IMG/VR virus record: IMGVR_UViG_3300020281_000145
Location: 1-20,531 of that record
Direction: 5' to 3' (one strand)
Source: a virus
DNA length: 20,531 nucleotides
The notes beneath the pieces were generated by a model that was not told the DNA's origin, did no database searches, and saw only the letters and a list, made by a program, of their open reading frames with translations. Below, piece after piece: positions 1,149 through 13,128 of this stretch. The translations under genes were made by a program, and so were the position numbers. Positions within the stretch are counted from its first letter, which is position 1; each line of letters opens with the position of its first letter.

Positions 1149-1237
1149 TCTGGGGTGGCGGAAAAGGTAGACGCGATAGGTTGTTTCCCTATTGTCTTGA
1201 GCAAGGCGTGGTGGTTCGAGTCCACCTCCCAGAGCCA
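1149..1237 (+). tRNA. Class II tRNA with anticodon GUU (Asn-type) and encoded CCA
   Basis: A full cloverleaf can be drawn. Acceptor 1149-1155 pairs with 1227-1233 (7 bp, one G-U). The D stem GCG/CGC is 1158-1160 with 1172-1174, with an 11-base loop containing GG. The anticodon stem ATAGG/CCTAT is 1176-1180 with 1188-1192, with loop TTGTTTC. A long variable arm spans 1193-1209 with a 5-bp stem (GTCTT/AAGGC, one G-U). The T arm GGTGG/CCACC has loop TTCGAGT. G73 is at 1234 and CCA at 1235-1237. The D arm and long variable arm resemble tRNA-Leu, but the anticodon is GUU (1183-1185). G73 and the U1-A72 pair match tRNA-Asn, whereas LeuRS needs A73. Position 37 is U, where a purine is usual. It is co-transcribed with the AsnRS-like gene and is probably a chimeric Asn acceptor. 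Serylation is an alternative, because SerRS reads the variable arm and accepts G73. Confidence 0.9.
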
Positions 1238-5316: not shown

Positions 5317-5652
5317 ATGAAAGAATCTGTGAAAGTTCTTCAAGAATGTGCTGAGCTGCAAACTAAAAAATCTCAAGATTATCAAAATGAACAATCTAAT
5401 ATTGTTCAAGCTATGCACTATCGCCGTGGTGTTGACACTATCCATGATATGATATGGCAAAAACTAATTCGTGCTCAATCATTGCTTGAAGCCGGTGATA
5501 ATCCAAACTTTGAATCTCTTGAAGATACATATAAAGATCTTATTAACTATTCGTCTTTCGCTGTATCTTATATACGAGGTAAGATGGAAGGTCAAGATCC
5601 TAAGAGAGATATGTTTAACAAAAAGAAAAAAGCAAATGTTACCGATAATTAA
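5317..5652 (+). CDS. DUF1599-like protein (nucleotide-modification-associated domain)
   Basis: This 111-residue, mainly helical protein has a KKSQDYQNEQSN segment (17-28), then a helix with DTIHDMIWQKLIRAQSL (40-56) and SLEDTYKDLINYSSFAVSYI near 67-86. That order (DYxN, IxxMIxxKLxR, EDxxKDLINY) fits the DUF1599 family, which others have linked to phage DNA modification gene clusters. The tail is Lys-rich. A clear ribosome site GGAG lies 7 bases before the ATG. It overlaps the dCMP hydroxymethylase start by 17 bases, which supports a shared nucleotide-modification role. The biochemical activity of the family is not known to me. Confidence 0.6.
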   Translation: MKESVKVLQECAELQTKKSQDYQNEQSNIVQAMHYRRGVDTIHDMIWQKLIRAQSLLEAGDNPNFESLEDTYKDLINYSSFAVSYIRGKMEGQDPKRDMFNKKKKANVTDN

Positions 5653-6337
5653 TACAACACATATAAGAAAACATTTCATAGAACAGTTACAGAATAAAAA
5701 CTTTACCATAGATAAAACTGGTCAGAAAACAATTGAACTGATTGGTGCGTCTTTCATAGCCGATGAACCCTCTATATTTGGTACAGTTAATAGAGATTAT
5801 ATTAATTCTGAAATAGAATGGTACAAATCAATGTCTACAAATATAAACGATATATTTGGCGAAGATAGAGAACCACCTCGAGCATGGAAACTATCTGCAA
5901 ATAAACATGGTGAAATAAATTCTAACTATGGCTTACTATGTTTTTCTTCAAAGTATCATAATCAAATGTCAAACGCTATAGCTGAGCTAATGCGTAATAA
6001 AGATACTCGTCGAGCTACTATAGTCTACAATAGGCCTTCAATATGGTCTGAATATAATGAATCAGGTAAAGATGATTTTATATGTACCAATGCAGTATCC
6101 TACTACATAAGAAATGATAAGATACACTGTGTAGTTCAAATGCGCTCTAATGATGTAATATATGGATATAAGAATGATTTTGCCTGGCAGCAGTTCATGC
6201 ATCATGAAATCATAAATCTATATAATGAATCTCTTGACAGCGATGAAGATGAACTCGGTACAGGCTTTATATATTGGCAGGTACAAAACCTTCATGTCTA
6301 TGAACAACACTTTCATCTAGTAAAGGAACCAGAATAA
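5636..6337 (+). CDS. 42: dCMP hydroxymethylase, T4 gp42 type
   Basis: The enzyme converts dCMP to 5-hydroxymethyl-dCMP using methylene-tetrahydrofolate, so that DNA can contain hydroxymethylcytosine. The 233-residue protein closely follows T4 gp42 from end to end: FTIDKTGQKTIELIGASF (23-40), HGEINSNYG (91-99), TRRATIVYNRPS (124-135), DFICTN with catalytic Cys150, MRSNDVIYGYKNDFAWQ (169-185), and WQVQNLHVYEQHF (214-226). Asp181 takes the place of the Asn that selects dUMP in thymidylate synthase; T4 has Asp179 at this site, which is why dCMP rather than dUMP is predicted. The start at ATG 5636 gives a length and N-terminus like T4; the open frame extends upstream, but only inside the previous gene. 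The ribosome site is weak, so translation is probably coupled. Confidence 0.95.
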   Translation: MLPIINTTHIRKHFIEQLQNKNFTIDKTGQKTIELIGASFIADEPSIFGTVNRDYINSEIEWYKSMSTNINDIFGEDREPPRAWKLSANKHGEINSNYGLLCFSSKYHNQMSNAIAELMRNKDTRRATIVYNRPSIWSEYNESGKDDFICTNAVSYYIRNDKIHCVVQMRSNDVIYGYKNDFAWQQFMHHEIINLYNESLDSDEDELGTGFIYWQVQNLHVYEQHFHLVKEPE

Positions 6338-6900
6338 TGAATATTTTCGTATTACATAAAGATCCTACGCTTGCAGCTCAAATGCTGTGTGATAAACATA
6401 TACCAAAAATGATCGTTGAGTCAGCACAAATGCTAAGTACAGCTCATAGATTATTAGATGGCACACCAGAAAAAAGAAGATCTAAATCAGGTAAGACTAT
6501 ACAAACTTATTATTCTTTTAATGATGGAAGAGAAAGCCTGTATTATGCAGCAGTACATAAGTATCATCCTTGTACGACATGGACTACCGAATCAAAGGAT
6601 AACTATAAGTGGCACTATAAACATTTTGCTGCTATGGCTGATGAATATACGTTTAGGCGTAAAAAAGTTCATGCTACTTGGGAAAAACTAGGTGAACTAT
6701 TACATAGGCCTCCTACAAATATTCCTGATATTGGACTAACTGAGTTTGCTCAAGCTATGTCACACTATCCTGATTGTATAGTTCCAGGTGATGCTGTACA
6801 GGCATATCGTAATTATTATCATACGGCTAAGCCATTTGCTAAATGGGACTGGGGAAGGCCGGCACCAGATTGGTGGGAAGGATATAAAGGAGCTGCATGA
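6337..6900 (+). CDS. Conserved phage protein of unknown function
   Basis: This 187-residue protein starts at an ATG sharing one base with the previous stop (TAATG). It is rich in His, Trp and Tyr. The segment LCDKHIPKMIVESAQMLSTA (17-36), an HPCTTW motif (77-82) and a basic W/P-rich C-terminus (KWDWGRPAPDWWEGYKG) are characteristic of a family often seen in T4-like and other phages. The opening resembles the start of pyrimidine-dimer glycosylase family proteins (Pyr_excise), but I cannot confirm catalytic residues, so no activity is assigned. It sits between dCMP hydroxymethylase and dCMP deaminase, so a link to nucleotide metabolism or DNA repair is possible. Confidence 0.7.
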   Translation: MNIFVLHKDPTLAAQMLCDKHIPKMIVESAQMLSTAHRLLDGTPEKRRSKSGKTIQTYYSFNDGRESLYYAAVHKYHPCTTWTTESKDNYKWHYKHFAAMADEYTFRRKKVHATWEKLGELLHRPPTNIPDIGLTEFAQAMSHYPDCIVPGDAVQAYRNYYHTAKPFAKWDWGRPAPDWWEGYKGAA

Positions 6901-7358
6901 TCATTAATACCTTAATGAAAAACTGGAAGTGGCAAGAAAGATACTTGGATCTAGCAGAAGAAATTTCCAAGTGGTCTAAGGATCCTTCAACTCAATGTGG
7001 AGCAGTTGCAGTTGGTGACAAAGGACAAATACTATCTCAAGGATATAATGGATTTCCTAGAGGTATTCATGATAATATCGGTTTATTAGAAGATAAGAAA
7101 TCTAAATATGATAGGATAGTTCATGCCGAAATGAATGTCATATATAATGCATGTTATAACGGAGTTAGTTTAGATGGAGCTTCTCTATACATATATGGTT
7201 TGCCTTTATGTTCTAAATGCTGTCTAGGTGTAATACAGGTAGGCATAAAACGGGTCATTATGAAAGCACCAAAACTTCCGGAAAGGTGGAATGAATCCTG
7301 GCAACTATCTCAAAAATTATTGTCAGAGGCAAACATAAAATATGATTTACAAAGCTAA
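6897..7358 (+). CDS. cd: dCMP deaminase
   Basis: A zinc-dependent cytidine/deoxycytidylate deaminase of 153 residues. It makes dUMP from dCMP and so feeds dTMP synthesis. Motifs: DPSTQCGAVAV (29-39), GYNGFPRG (49-56), HAEMN (77-81; zinc His77 and proton-shuttle Glu79), and PLCSKC (103-108), whose two Cys complete the zinc site. The ATG overlaps the previous stop as ATGA, and AAAGGAG lies just upstream. The length is less than T4 Cd (about 190), without the extra zinc loop near the N-terminus. It competes with the neighbouring hydroxymethylase for dCMP, so together they set the balance between T and hydroxymethyl-C. Confidence 0.93.
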   Translation: MIINTLMKNWKWQERYLDLAEEISKWSKDPSTQCGAVAVGDKGQILSQGYNGFPRGIHDNIGLLEDKKSKYDRIVHAEMNVIYNACYNGVSLDGASLYIYGLPLCSKCCLGVIQVGIKRVIMKAPKLPERWNESWQLSQKLLSEANIKYDLQS

Positions 7359-7374
7359 GAAAGTGTGGTATAAT
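7346..7374 (+). promoter_or_regulatory. Sigma70-like promoter for GMP reductase (leaderless)
   Basis: TTTACA 7346-7351, a 17-base spacer ending TGTGG, then consensus TATAAT 7369-7374. It overlaps the last codons of the dCMP deaminase. The ATG of the next gene is only 6 bases past the -10 box. Confidence 0.8.
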
Positions 7375-7379
7375 AAATT

Positions 7380-8369
7380 ATGAGAGTTGAGAATGAAAAA
7401 AAATTAGATTATTCTGATGTACTTATCAGGCCTAAAAGATCTACTCTTACATCTAGGTGTGACGTTGATATGACAAGAACATATACTTTTCTCCACAGCC
7501 AGAGAAACTGGACCGGTATACCAATTATGTCTGCAAACATGGATACTGTCGGAACACCAGAAATGTACAAAGTATTGTTTAAACATAAGATGATTACTAG
7601 TCCGGCCAGACACTATTTAAAAAATAGTATTAACACATTTAAAGGAAAAAATCTTTGTATGATGGGTGGATTGGAAGACATAGATACTTTAGCCGATAAT
7701 AACTCAAAATGGGATTTTATGGGTATTGACGTTGCAAATGGATATACTATATCAGTCATAGATGCAGTAAAATCTTTAAGAGAGAAGGTACCGAATGCTA
7801 CGATCGTCGTAGGAAATGTTGTAACCGCAGACATGACGCAGGAACTGATTTTAGCAGGTGCAGATATTATTAAGGTTGGTGTAGGACCAGGATCTGTATG
7901 CACTACAAGAATAAAAACAGGTGTTGGTTATCCACAACTCAGCGCTGTTATGGAATGTGCAGACGCGGCACATGGATTAAATGCTCATATTATTGCAGAT
8001 GGTGGATGTAATTCTTCTGGTGATATTGTAAAAGCATTTGCGGCAGGTGCAGACTTTGTAATGATTGGTGGAATGTTATCAGGACACGATGAGTGCGATG
8101 GAGAAATCATAGATGGAAAGATGAAATTTTACGGTATGGCTTCTGAATCCGCTATGTCTAGACACAATGTTCCTCATAGAGAATATAGAGGGGTAGAAGG
8201 TAAGACGGTAGAGGTAGAATACAGAGGTCCTGTAGATAAAACTATTGTCGACATACTGTCAGGAATACGATCAGCGTGTACATACATTGGTGCAGAAAAA
8301 CTTAAGTCTCTATCAAAGTGTGCTACGTTTATCAGAGTAAATGATACACATAATAGAGTATATGAATAA
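7380..8369 (+). CDS. guaC: GMP reductase
   Basis: A 329-residue TIM-barrel enzyme converting GMP to IMP with NADPH. It follows bacterial GuaC (about 347 residues) rather than IMP dehydrogenase: there is no CBS-domain insert. The signature [20 protein letters not shown] (167-186) has catalytic Cys174 and Thr176. [20 protein letters not shown] and [10 protein letters not shown] follow, then [12 protein letters not shown] and [15 protein letters not shown] near the C-terminus. All of these are GuaC hallmarks. It has its own promoter and no ribosome site, so the transcript is predicted to begin at or next to the AUG. In a phage with AT-rich DNA it may move host guanine nucleotides toward adenine; that is inference. 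Phage-encoded GuaC is unusual. Confidence 0.95.
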
Positions 8370-10844: not shown

Positions 10845-11929
10845 GAGTAATTATATCGATGGCAGGATTAGGTTCAAGGTTTACTGATGCTGGTTATAAA
10901 ACACACAAACCTTTAATTAAAGTAAACAATAAGAGCCTAATAAGATATACCGTTGAATCTTTAGGAATAAAGGGAGAGTACATATTTGTATGTAGAGATC
11001 TAGGAGGATCATATTTAAACGATTTGGAAATGGAGCTTAAGGATATAAATACTTTTTCCTGTGCGCCAACGATAAAAGTAATTGATCATGTTACTACTGG
11101 TGCTGCGGAAACTGCGCTATATGGTCTAGAAGATAATTATAATGGTGAACTAATCGTAACTAACTGTGATCAGTATTTAGATTGGAATCCTGATATATTC
11201 TTAAAAGAAGCAAGACAGTATCAAGGTTGCGTACTAACTTATAAATCAGATAAGTTGAAAAATTCATTTGCTGAATCTATTAATGGCTATGTCAGAAAAA
11301 TGACAGAAAAACCTGATAAACCTATAAAGGGCGGTGAGGCTTTGGTAGGTGTTCACTATTGGAGAAAAGCTAAAGACTTTAAAGAATCGACTCAAGATCT
11401 TCTTAAATCTTTCAGAGGTGAAACCTATGTATCTGAAACTTATAACTATCTAATAAAAAATAAAGCGTCTATAGGAACTAGCTCAATTGAACAGAACGGT
11501 ATAGGCAAATACTGGTCAACAGGAACTCCTGAAGATCTTGCATTATTTAAGGGAATGATCTCAGAATACTATACTAAGAAAAATAATACATACTTTATAG
11601 ATTTGGATGGAACAATATTTACTCACGCTCATCGATATTCAAATCTTAAAAATTCTGCAAAACTTCTTCCTGGTGTCAAGGAAACTCTTGATGAACTGGA
11701 TTCAAGAGGAGATACCATAATCTTAGTGTCTGCTAGGAAAGAAGGTGCTAGAAAATTTACAGAACAAATACTAGAAGATAACCTAATACCCTATGATCAA
11801 CTGATACTTGGAGTGTCACAAGGCTGTAGAGTTGTAATTAATGATATACTCACTCCCAACTGCTTACCGCGAGCTAGGGCAGTAAATGTTCAGGTTGATA
11901 AAGGATGGAGAACAGAGGACTTAGCATGA
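10841..11929 (+). CDS. Sugar nucleotidyltransferase-HAD phosphatase fusion
   Basis: A two-domain protein of 362 residues. Residues 1-245 form a GT-A-fold nucleotidyltransferase: ISMAGLGSRF (5-14), THKPLI (21-26; Lys contacts the phosphosugar), TTGAAETAL near 85-93, and TNCDQYL with metal-binding D110. Residues 249-345 form a HAD phosphatase: YFIDLDGTIF (D254 nucleophile, D256), LVSAR (295-299) as motif II, and GCRVVINDI (328-336) as motif III. The fusion would activate a phosphorylated sugar or polyol and dephosphorylate a related compound. It overlaps the GDPD-like gene by ATGA and is followed by the methyltransferase. It would supply the donor for the upstream glycosyltransferase. Confidence 0.85.
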   Translation: MRVIISMAGLGSRFTDAGYKTHKPLIKVNNKSLIRYTVESLGIKGEYIFVCRDLGGSYLNDLEMELKDINTFSCAPTIKVIDHVTTGAAETALYGLEDNYNGELIVTNCDQYLDWNPDIFLKEARQYQGCVLTYKSDKLKNSFAESINGYVRKMTEKPDKPIKGGEALVGVHYWRKAKDFKESTQDLLKSFRGETYVSETYNYLIKNKASIGTSSIEQNGIGKYWSTGTPEDLALFKGMISEYYTKKNNTYFIDLDGTIFTHAHRYSNLKNSAKLLPGVKETLDELDSRGDTIILVSARKEGARKFTEQILEDNLIPYDQLILGVSQGCRVVINDILTPNCLPRARAVNVQVDKGWRTEDLA

Positions 11930-13128
11930 ACCATACTTACGCTAGCATAGTTCCACTGATAGGTGGAGAAACTATTGCAATGCAAAACGTCTTTGGAAAA
12001 AAACCTGAATATATTTTAAGCTATGAAGATTTTAAAGCAAATGATAATCACCTTGTGGAATACTATAAAAGAGAAGTTCCCTATCATCTTATTGGAAGTG
12101 ATAGGTTACCTGACGTTCCTTCTGTCGATGTTATTAACACCGTGTGTCCTTGTGCTGGTTTGTCTAGCCTCAATACTTCAGCATCTTCTGATTCTTCTAC
12201 TAATGATTGGATGCGCACTTCAGCCACTCATGTCCTGGGTACACTCAAGCCTAAAGTATTCTGGGGCGAAAACGCACCAAGACTTGCTTCAAAGATGGGA
12301 GAACCAGTTGTCAAAGATTTACGAGAAATTGGAAAAAAATACGGATACACTTTTTCACTATATAAAACGAAATCTATTCTTCATGGATTAGGGCAGGTAA
12401 GAGATAGAGCATTCTACTTCTTTTGGAAAGGTGATAAGATACCTCCATTTGACTACTTTAAAAGAAAGCATAAGCCGATTGAAGATACGATAAGAAGTGT
12501 AACTAGAGATCCAAATGATCCTATGAATGTTTTAGCAAACGAAAAGACTCCTACCGATAATCCCTACTATCAATTTGTGTTAAAAGAAATGTGTGGTGGA
12601 ATGACACACAAAGAGTTCCAGAGAAGTTTAACGAAAACGATGAATGCTATGGATTATATTGAAGAACATGGTGTTAAATATAATAGAGTCTCATCATGGT
12701 TTATGGAGAACGGATACATCAAACAATCCGATAAAGCAATGGAAATTCATAAGAAACTGGAACAAGGCAACAACATAATGAGAAGACTAGTTACTATTCC
12801 TAAAGACTATATAGGAGCCTTTGTTGGTCATATGCCACTAGAACTCACACATCCAGATGAAGACAGGTTTCTAACTATTAGAGAATGTTTAACTATTATG
12901 GGTTTACCTGATGATTTCCAACTGCAAGGAGGAAAGAAGAATATTAACCATATATGCCAAAATGTTCCAGTAGGAACAGCATCAGATATGGCGGATCAAG
13001 TTTTAAAATTTGTAGATGGAAGACTGGATAACCAATTAATAGACGCTGAATTTATAGTTCAATGTAACAAATCAAGAAATGTAAGCTATGAAAAAACTGG
13101 TTTACAATTAGATGAATTTATGGTATAA
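11926..13128 (+). CDS. DNA (cytosine-5) methyltransferase
   Basis: A 400-residue C5 methyltransferase with the motifs in order. The SAM site is near residues 8-20 (IVPLIGGETIAMQ), diverged from FxGxGG. The catalytic loop is CPCAGLSSLN (74-83; Cys76 in a PC-A-G-L-S version of PCQxFS). GENAPR (114-119) stands for ENV. QVRDRAF (157-163) is the QxRxR motif. RFLTIRECLTIMGLPDDF lies near 306-323, and QNVPVGTASDMADQV near 336-350. The target-recognition region (about 170-300) is unique. The start at 11926 is preferred: it forms ATGA with the previous stop and GAGG lies 7 bases upstream; an in-frame ATG at 11905 would add 7 residues. Its co-existence with a dCMP hydroxymethylase is odd, because hydroxymethylated cytosines cannot be C5-methylated. 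Confidence 0.85.
   Translation: MNHTYASIVPLIGGETIAMQNVFGKKPEYILSYEDFKANDNHLVEYYKREVPYHLIGSDRLPDVPSVDVINTVCPCAGLSSLNTSASSDSSTNDWMRTSATHVLGTLKPKVFWGENAPRLASKMGEPVVKDLREIGKKYGYTFSLYKTKSILHGLGQVRDRAFYFFWKGDKIPPFDYFKRKHKPIEDTIRSVTRDPNDPMNVLANEKTPTDNPYYQFVLKEMCGGMTHKEFQRSLTKTMNAMDYIEEHGVKYNRVSSWFMENGYIKQSDKAMEIHKKLEQGNNIMRRLVTIPKDYIGAFVGHMPLELTHPDEDRFLTIRECLTIMGLPDDFQLQGGKKNINHICQNVPVGTASDMADQVLKFVDGRLDNQLIDAEFIVQCNKSRNVSYEKTGLQLDEFMV

Follow-up and report, generated by a model that had tools for sequence, protein, structure and literature searches.

What use does a virus have for a tRNA that bears the anticodon of asparagine on the body of a leucine tRNA? The question is raised by the 20,531 nucleotides of IMG/VR virus record IMGVR_UViG_3300020281_000145 (positions 1 to 20,531, hereafter the window), in which an original prediction had singled out a class II tRNA with an Asn anticodon beside a synthetase-like gene. 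We analyzed this tRNA, its relatives in other genomes, and the adjacent enzyme. The reading we favor, to which we give a little less than an even chance, is that the tRNA serves as a dedicated Asn-type carrier for that enzyme and that its use probably lies outside normal decoding. The features concerned are the following:

146 to 976, + strand: catalytic core of a class IIb (D/K/N) aminoacyl-tRNA synthetase, 276 amino acids, without an anticodon-binding domain (phrog_29758)
1149 to 1237, + strand: class II tRNA with the Asn identity set, from ARAGORN, sequence reading, alignment, and a covariance model
1183 to 1185: anticodon GUU of the tRNA
1186: U37
1193 to 1209: variable arm
1234: G73
1235 to 1237: encoded CCA

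An intact class II tRNA with a leucine-type body

ARAGORN finds a single tRNA in the window, at 1149 to 1237 on the + strand, with anticodon gtt. Read directly from the sequence, it has acceptor, D, and anticodon stems of 7, 3, and 5 bp, a Leu-like D arm, anticodon loop UUGUUUC, T loop UUCGAGU, a 17-nucleotide variable arm with up to five pairs, and a U1-A72 pair followed at the 3′ end by G73 and CCA. The two approaches together confirm the class II cloverleaf of the original prediction in all its particulars, from the arm length and D arm to GUU, G73, U1-A72, and U37. The Rfam tRNA model scores the window below its gathering score, and no other Rfam model matches it above gathering either.

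Among 25 aligned relatives, pairing is standard in 99.7% of cloverleaf pair cells, including the stem of the variable arm. Seventeen of 23 pairs have changed on both sides, and such two-sided changes fill 114 cells, compared with a mean of 26 after shuffling and 13 or fewer in slid controls. The same intact tRNA is thus kept across relatives, contrary to a scenario in which they carry a normal tRNA and the window a decayed copy. Taking class II to mean a variable arm of at least 10 nucleotides with a stem, the family belongs there, with arms of 11 to 38 nucleotides across copies. Unusually long arms of ~27 to 31 nucleotides with a recurring GCAA...TATTT segment occur in L009, L020, L044, L050, L077, and similar loci.

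Raw pairwise identity was uninformative because gaps dominated it, and we therefore compared tRNA bodies by model scores. Applied to other tRNAs of the same loci, the family covariance model gives tRNA-Leu 65 to 72 bits, tRNA-Tyr 54, tRNA-Ser 41 to 48, and class I tRNAs at most 44. By these scores the body is Leu-type, and together with the long arm it departs from the class I body expected of bacterial tRNA-Asn. Nor does the tRNA have the A73 and Leu anticodon of tRNA-Leu, which are replaced by G73 and GUU, and with tRNA-Ser, defined by G73, C72, and a Ser-type long arm, it shares G73 alone, having A72 and a Leu-type body. The simplest history would be that a Leu-type tRNA gained an Asn anticodon and acceptor end.

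Charging and decoding determinants

A covariance model built on 25 of these tRNAs retrieved 162 copies with 109 distinct sequences, many of them close relatives from related queries, so percentages do not represent independent events. Anticodon positions 34 to 36 are GUU in 162 of 162 copies, and every complete copy except that of locus L239 has U1-A72 and G73. Position 37 varies: among distinct sequences, 87% have U there, 8% A, and 5% C (a pyrimidine in 92%). Position 33, a U in the window, has changed to C in 11 of the 109 and to G in one (U33 lost in 11%), and the change is seen in clearly different sequence backgrounds (L024, L026/L027, L114/L150, and the L087 type). The 82 other tRNAs of the same loci, used as a control, all have U33 and a purine at 37, and A37 is what a tRNA-Asn would be expected to have; U37 was rightly called unusual. 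The one apparent exception in this control was itself the P-SSM5 copy of the family. About half of the family copies encode CCA. The exceptional copy, L239:6077-6170, has GUU intact, a mispaired acceptor end (U1/C72), and A73, and is possibly decaying or changing identity.

U-A is the usual first pair of bacterial tRNA-Asn. It is also the determinant of GatCAB amidation of that tRNA, and the three anticodon bases with G73 suffice to transplant bacterial Asn identity (PMC9976931); U1-A72, which had been considered odd, is therefore part of the Asn signature. U33 and A37 modified to N6-threonylcarbamoyladenosine (t6A) serve the decoding of A-starting codons (PMC5372741). Set against these determinants, the window tRNA has what bacterial charging calls for (G34, U35, U36, G73, and, for GatCAB, U1-A72) and falls short of what decoding calls for (U33 and a modifiable A37), given its U37 and the rarity of A37 in the family. 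In sequence terms, Asn charging determinants are held and decoding determinants are relaxed, so that the tRNA looks like one kept for Asn charging rather than for efficient decoding.

Linkage of the tRNA to a core-only synthetase

The adjacent enzyme matches PF00152, not PF03590, and has a class IIb catalytic core with motifs 2 and 3. Both Pfam and the structural model show core only, the N-terminal oligonucleotide/oligosaccharide-binding fold with which asparaginyl-tRNA synthetase (AsnRS) binds the anticodon being absent. Its AlphaFold2 model (predicted local distance difference test score, 91) is closest to the cores of AsnRS and aspartyl-tRNA synthetase (AspRS), with a template modeling score on the query of 0.79 for Pyrococcus horikoshii AsnRS (1x54). 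A profile search returned eukaryotic AsnRS first (1.7e-11) and archaeal AS-AR much lower (2.8e-4). The enzyme also carries a segment Q-x-x-L-E, which we take to be AsnRS-like, where AspRS has Q-L-x-K. The family is annotated as "tRNA ligase" in Prochlorococcus phages P-SSM7, P-SSM2, and P-SSM5 and as of unknown function in PHROGs.

When related phages were searched, the same tRNA was found just downstream of the same synthetase core in all three of these phages and in most related marine phage contigs. P-SSM7 and P-SSM5 have an annotated tRNA-Asn of 85 to 86 nucleotides directly after the enzyme, and the P-SSM2 copy is at the same place. In P-SSM2 (L003, AY939844.2), ARAGORN and the covariance model put it at L003 4822-4911, directly after the ligase gene; the annotated tRNA-Asn lies at record positions 164094-164179, ~2 kb off, its coordinates probably not updated in version 2. 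Relatives of the enzyme are present in at least 600 viral contig stretches, and by the covariance model a large majority of phage loci have the tRNA, mostly ~10 to 170 nucleotides downstream of the enzyme gene and on the same strand. A further set of loci was collected by tRNA pattern only, an ascertainment independent of the enzyme; in this set, in which many contigs overlap earlier ones, the enzyme is adjacent in 204 of 204 loci with enough upstream sequence, and 19 further loci were not judgeable. No protein-coding gene family is a constant neighbor in the phage loci.

The linkage is obligate for the tRNA and not for the enzyme. The enzyme occurs without the tRNA in close phage relatives (L070, L053/L054), in loci L172 to L174, in the huge phages LR756501 and LR756508, and in nearly all cellular homologues. 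A maximum-likelihood tree places the tRNA-bearing enzymes in a main phage clade and a small second clade (L175, L239), nested among homologues that lack the tRNA. In cellular genomes the covariance search returned mostly what appear to be ordinary Leu-type tRNAs; a pattern search used instead, with a gap of ≥20 to admit short variable arms such as that of L012, gave matches at control level except for L239/G035.

Cellular homologues and a possible role in pyrimidine synthesis

Homologues with ~50 to 60% identity are found in Patescibacteria, Bacteroidota, Alphaproteobacteria, Pasteurella atlantica, Myxococcota, and others. An E-x6-R segment and the key residues of motifs 2 and 3 do not vary among phage and cellular enzymes, and the alignment columns that separate tRNA-bearing phage enzymes from cellular ones fall outside them; phage and cellular enzymes therefore probably use the same chemistry. 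Among 107 open reading frames neighboring cellular homologues, the commonest encode orotidine monophosphate decarboxylase (7), dihydroorotate dehydrogenase (6), and phosphoribosyltransferase (6), the pyrimidine genes coming from about four lineages. The homologue adjoins pyrD, pyrE, or pyrF in L184, L206, L200, L204, L243, L176, and other cellular loci.

Aspartate carbamoyltransferase (PyrB, TIGR00670) scores above cutoff in 2 of 33 enzyme-bearing genomes and in 14 of 14 control genomes. The subcutoff PyrB matches in Pasteurella atlantica and in the genome of L204 resemble ornithine carbamoyltransferase, as judged by eye and not with a family model. Within the family of Aureispira, PyrB is above cutoff in 54 of 59 sampled genomes without the enzyme and in 0 of 2 genomes with it. 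Many enzyme-bearing genomes are reduced or are incomplete metagenome-assembled genomes, and the absence is strongest in Pasteurella atlantica, which has a complete chromosome, and in large Bacteroidota genomes. Dihydroorotase (TIGR00857) is above cutoff in 1 of the 33 genomes, with weaker matches in some, in a search that did not cover the other dihydroorotase type. From this genome context, the cellular relatives look like replacements for aspartate carbamoyltransferase, which makes the homologue a candidate new enzyme of pyrimidine biosynthesis built on a class IIb synthetase core.

Fourteen of the 33 enzyme-bearing genomes have a full-length AsnRS above cutoff, and many have AsnB or AsnA. 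Given this coexistence, the short enzyme is unlikely to be the AsnRS or the asparagine synthetase of those cells, and we disfavor the latter as its cellular role. Three alphaproteobacterial genomes (G003, G004, and G030) have no AsnRS above cutoff, no AsnA, and no convincing AsnB, so that their Asn may exist mainly as Asn-tRNA.

Two further observations concern individual cellular loci. Terminator-like hairpins with T runs lie a short way upstream of the enzyme start in L177, L180, L181, L190, L194, L206, and L243 and could be attenuators or the ends of preceding genes. The SR1-lineage homologue at L226:5001-5798 has three in-frame stops in translation table 11, as expected if TGA encodes Gly there.

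Possible roles of the tRNA

We favor, tentatively, a dedicated Asn carrier. A former Leu-type tRNA would have been given, and held to, G34-U35-U36, G73, and U1-A72, without being held to the U33 and modifiable A37 of a good decoder. It would obtain Asn from the core enzyme itself, from host AsnRS, or from AspRS with GatCAB. The core enzyme cannot reach the anticodon in the usual way; host AsnRS, or AspRS with GatCAB, would read the conserved bases. The main use of the charged tRNA would be to supply a tRNA-bound substrate to the adjacent enzyme or to accept a product from it, and would lie mostly elsewhere than in the ordinary reading of Asn codons. Among the options first put forward for this tRNA, use outside translation fits best, given the relaxed U33 and A37.

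Several observations weigh against a carrier role. It does not account for the long variable arm, and the bacterial Asn identity table includes A37 as well (PMC9976931). Thirteen of the 162 copies retain the fully canonical Asn loop CUGUUAA, and the normal D and T arms, often with an encoded CCA, are compatible with ribosomal use. The phage enzymes are acidic, with net charges of −14 to −26, which disfavors tRNA binding. The link to pyrimidine genes is seen in cellular relatives only, and since cells, huge phages, L070, and L053/L054 have the enzyme and lack the tRNA, the tRNA is not essential to it.

A dedicated translation pair is the next most plausible explanation, at something over one chance in four in our estimation. 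The core would be a minimal AsnRS and the tRNA would read AAC and AAU during infection, an orthogonal supply of Asn-tRNA that is perhaps safe from host tRNA nucleases. In its favor, the class IIb core is AsnRS-like and the adjacent tRNA has the full Asn identity set, invariant GUU is what decoding needs, and CysRS*/SelC* offers a precedent for a synthetase that lacks an anticodon-binding domain and is coupled to its own tRNA (PMC9437257). Against this stand the relaxation of U33 and A37 in this tRNA only and not in its 82 neighbors, the existence of cells that have the enzyme but no such tRNA, many of them with a full-length AsnRS as well, and the pyrimidine-gene link of the cellular relatives. 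The orthogonal Asn acceptor of the original prediction is accordingly still possible, weakened by the missing anticodon-binding domain and by tRNA-less relatives that look pyrimidine biosynthetic.

The carrier role could also be given a specific chemistry, which we consider unlikely. The core family would make dihydroorotate or another pyrimidine precursor from Asn carried on tRNA-Asn, bypassing aspartate carbamoyltransferase, with the phage tRNA as a nondecoding carrier. Cells would use ordinary Asn-tRNA and marine phages would bring a carrier of their own, so that pyrimidine supply for viral DNA would spare translation and escape host feedback control. This proposal is prompted by the pyrF, pyrD, and pyrE neighbors, the scarcity of PyrB in enzyme-bearing genomes relative to controls, and the PyrB pattern in the Aureispira family.

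Slightly less probable again is a decoy or sponge, in which a tRNA-Asn mimic would tie up AsnRS, a host anticodon nuclease, or a modification enzyme, such as TGT, that recognizes the GU of the anticodon, the adjacent enzyme being separately metabolic. Retention of GUU without the decoding features agrees with such a role, but a decoy would have no need to stay strictly linked to a single enzyme or to keep U1-A72 and G73 invariant.

We regard a Ser-charged mistranslator as very improbable. Host SerRS would recognize the long arm and G73, both part of bacterial Ser identity (PMC9976931), and serine would be inserted at Asn codons; yet the body is Leu-type rather than Ser-type, the tRNA lacks bacterial Ser determinants such as C72 (A72 here), its linked synthetase core belongs with the Asp/Asn enzymes, and decoding features are relaxed. 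Of the proposal that the tRNA has changed identity, the Leu-type class II body, the Asn identity elements, and the conserved linkage to a synthetase-like gene all hold up, and the Ser variant finds no support. A decayed or spurious gene, which U37 and the C33 or G33 of some copies might suggest as abnormal, can be dismissed almost entirely, given the compensatory changes and near-complete pairing of 25 sequences, the invariant GUU, G73, and U1-A72, and the encoded CCA of about half of the copies.

Genomic context

The window has genes of the T4-like myovirus type, including family B DNA polymerase, UvsX, and a DnaB-type helicase, and nucleotide metabolism genes encoding thymidylate synthase, dCMP deaminase, an IMPDH/GMP reductase domain, and a PRA-PH/MazG-like protein. 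At 5630-8366 and 11905-13125 are a cluster of nucleotide metabolism genes (thymidylate synthase, dCMP deaminase, and the IMPDH/GMP reductase domain) and, further on, a C5-cytosine DNA methylase. Two smaller features border the module:

963 to 1148, + strand: 61-amino-acid open reading frame that overlaps the end of the enzyme gene and stops just before the tRNA; no family match
105 to 112, + strand: TATAAATA, upstream of the enzyme

The open reading frame lies outside the constant module, the tRNA starting 10 to 30 nucleotides after the enzyme in many other loci. The element at 105 to 112 is identical to the T4-type late promoter element, and 38 of 163 loci have it in the 80 nucleotides that precede the enzyme, compared with 0.7% of background 80-nucleotide windows. 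In L010 to L021, L074, and others, a recurrent motif in the intergenic region before the enzyme combines two T8 tracts with a short inverted repeat, e.g., GGTCAATTTTTTTTTGACCAAAATTTTTTTTGACT; other loci have the late element TATAAATA there.

Relation to known systems and implications

The literature we searched, coverage of which is incomplete, yielded nothing on a class II phage tRNA-Asn or on its pairing with this synthetase; the two genes are known from the P-SSM genomes as a plain tRNA-Asn and a "tRNA ligase." The closest parallel is CysRS*/SelC* (reviewed in PMC9437257), also a core that lacks an anticodon-binding domain and has a structurally unusual tRNA of its own, to which it is genetically coupled. 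That system consists of a CysRS paralogue and a tRNA-Sec-like tRNA and inserts Cys at UGA, whereas in the phage pair the core is class IIb and the tRNA is an Asn-type one on a Leu body, its decoding bases relaxed. In ProRSx/tRNA-ProA (PMC9437257), a synthetase paralogue has likewise coevolved with an unusual tRNA partner, but loss of decoding bases is not described there. GluQ-RS (YadB; PMC9437257) resembles the phage enzyme in lacking an anticodon-binding domain and acts outside normal charging; it differs as a GluRS paralogue acting on tRNA-Asp. Archaeal AS-AR and AsnA are also class II D/N cores without that domain. By sequence the window enzyme belongs to neither, matching PF00152 rather than PF03590 and AS-AR far more weakly than AsnRS; its family also coexists with AsnA/AsnB and has a tRNA partner in phages.

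On the tRNA side, nematode nev-tRNAs (PMC4033280) also join a class II body to the anticodon of a class I amino acid. They decode as Leu, whereas the phage tRNA has a dedicated enzyme linked to it and a G73 that is expected to block LeuRS. Allo-tRNAs (PMC7609411) are similarly unusual in their long variable arms and nonstandard anticodons, but have tRNA-Sec-like 8/4 or 9/3 folds, unlike the 7/5 Leu-type fold here, which is without Ser identity. The phage pair is thus another case of a core-only synthetase genetically coupled to an unusual tRNA, and proof of the carrier role would make it categorically new.

With charging determinants kept, decoding determinants not, and a core-only synthetase linked in hundreds of marine phage contigs, the pair is a natural test case for the use of aminoacyl-tRNA outside translation. 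If the pair does work in translation, it would be a naturally distinct class II Asn system useful for genetic code work. If it is true that the enzyme family replaces aspartate carbamoyltransferase in several bacterial lineages, it would represent a new route to pyrimidines.
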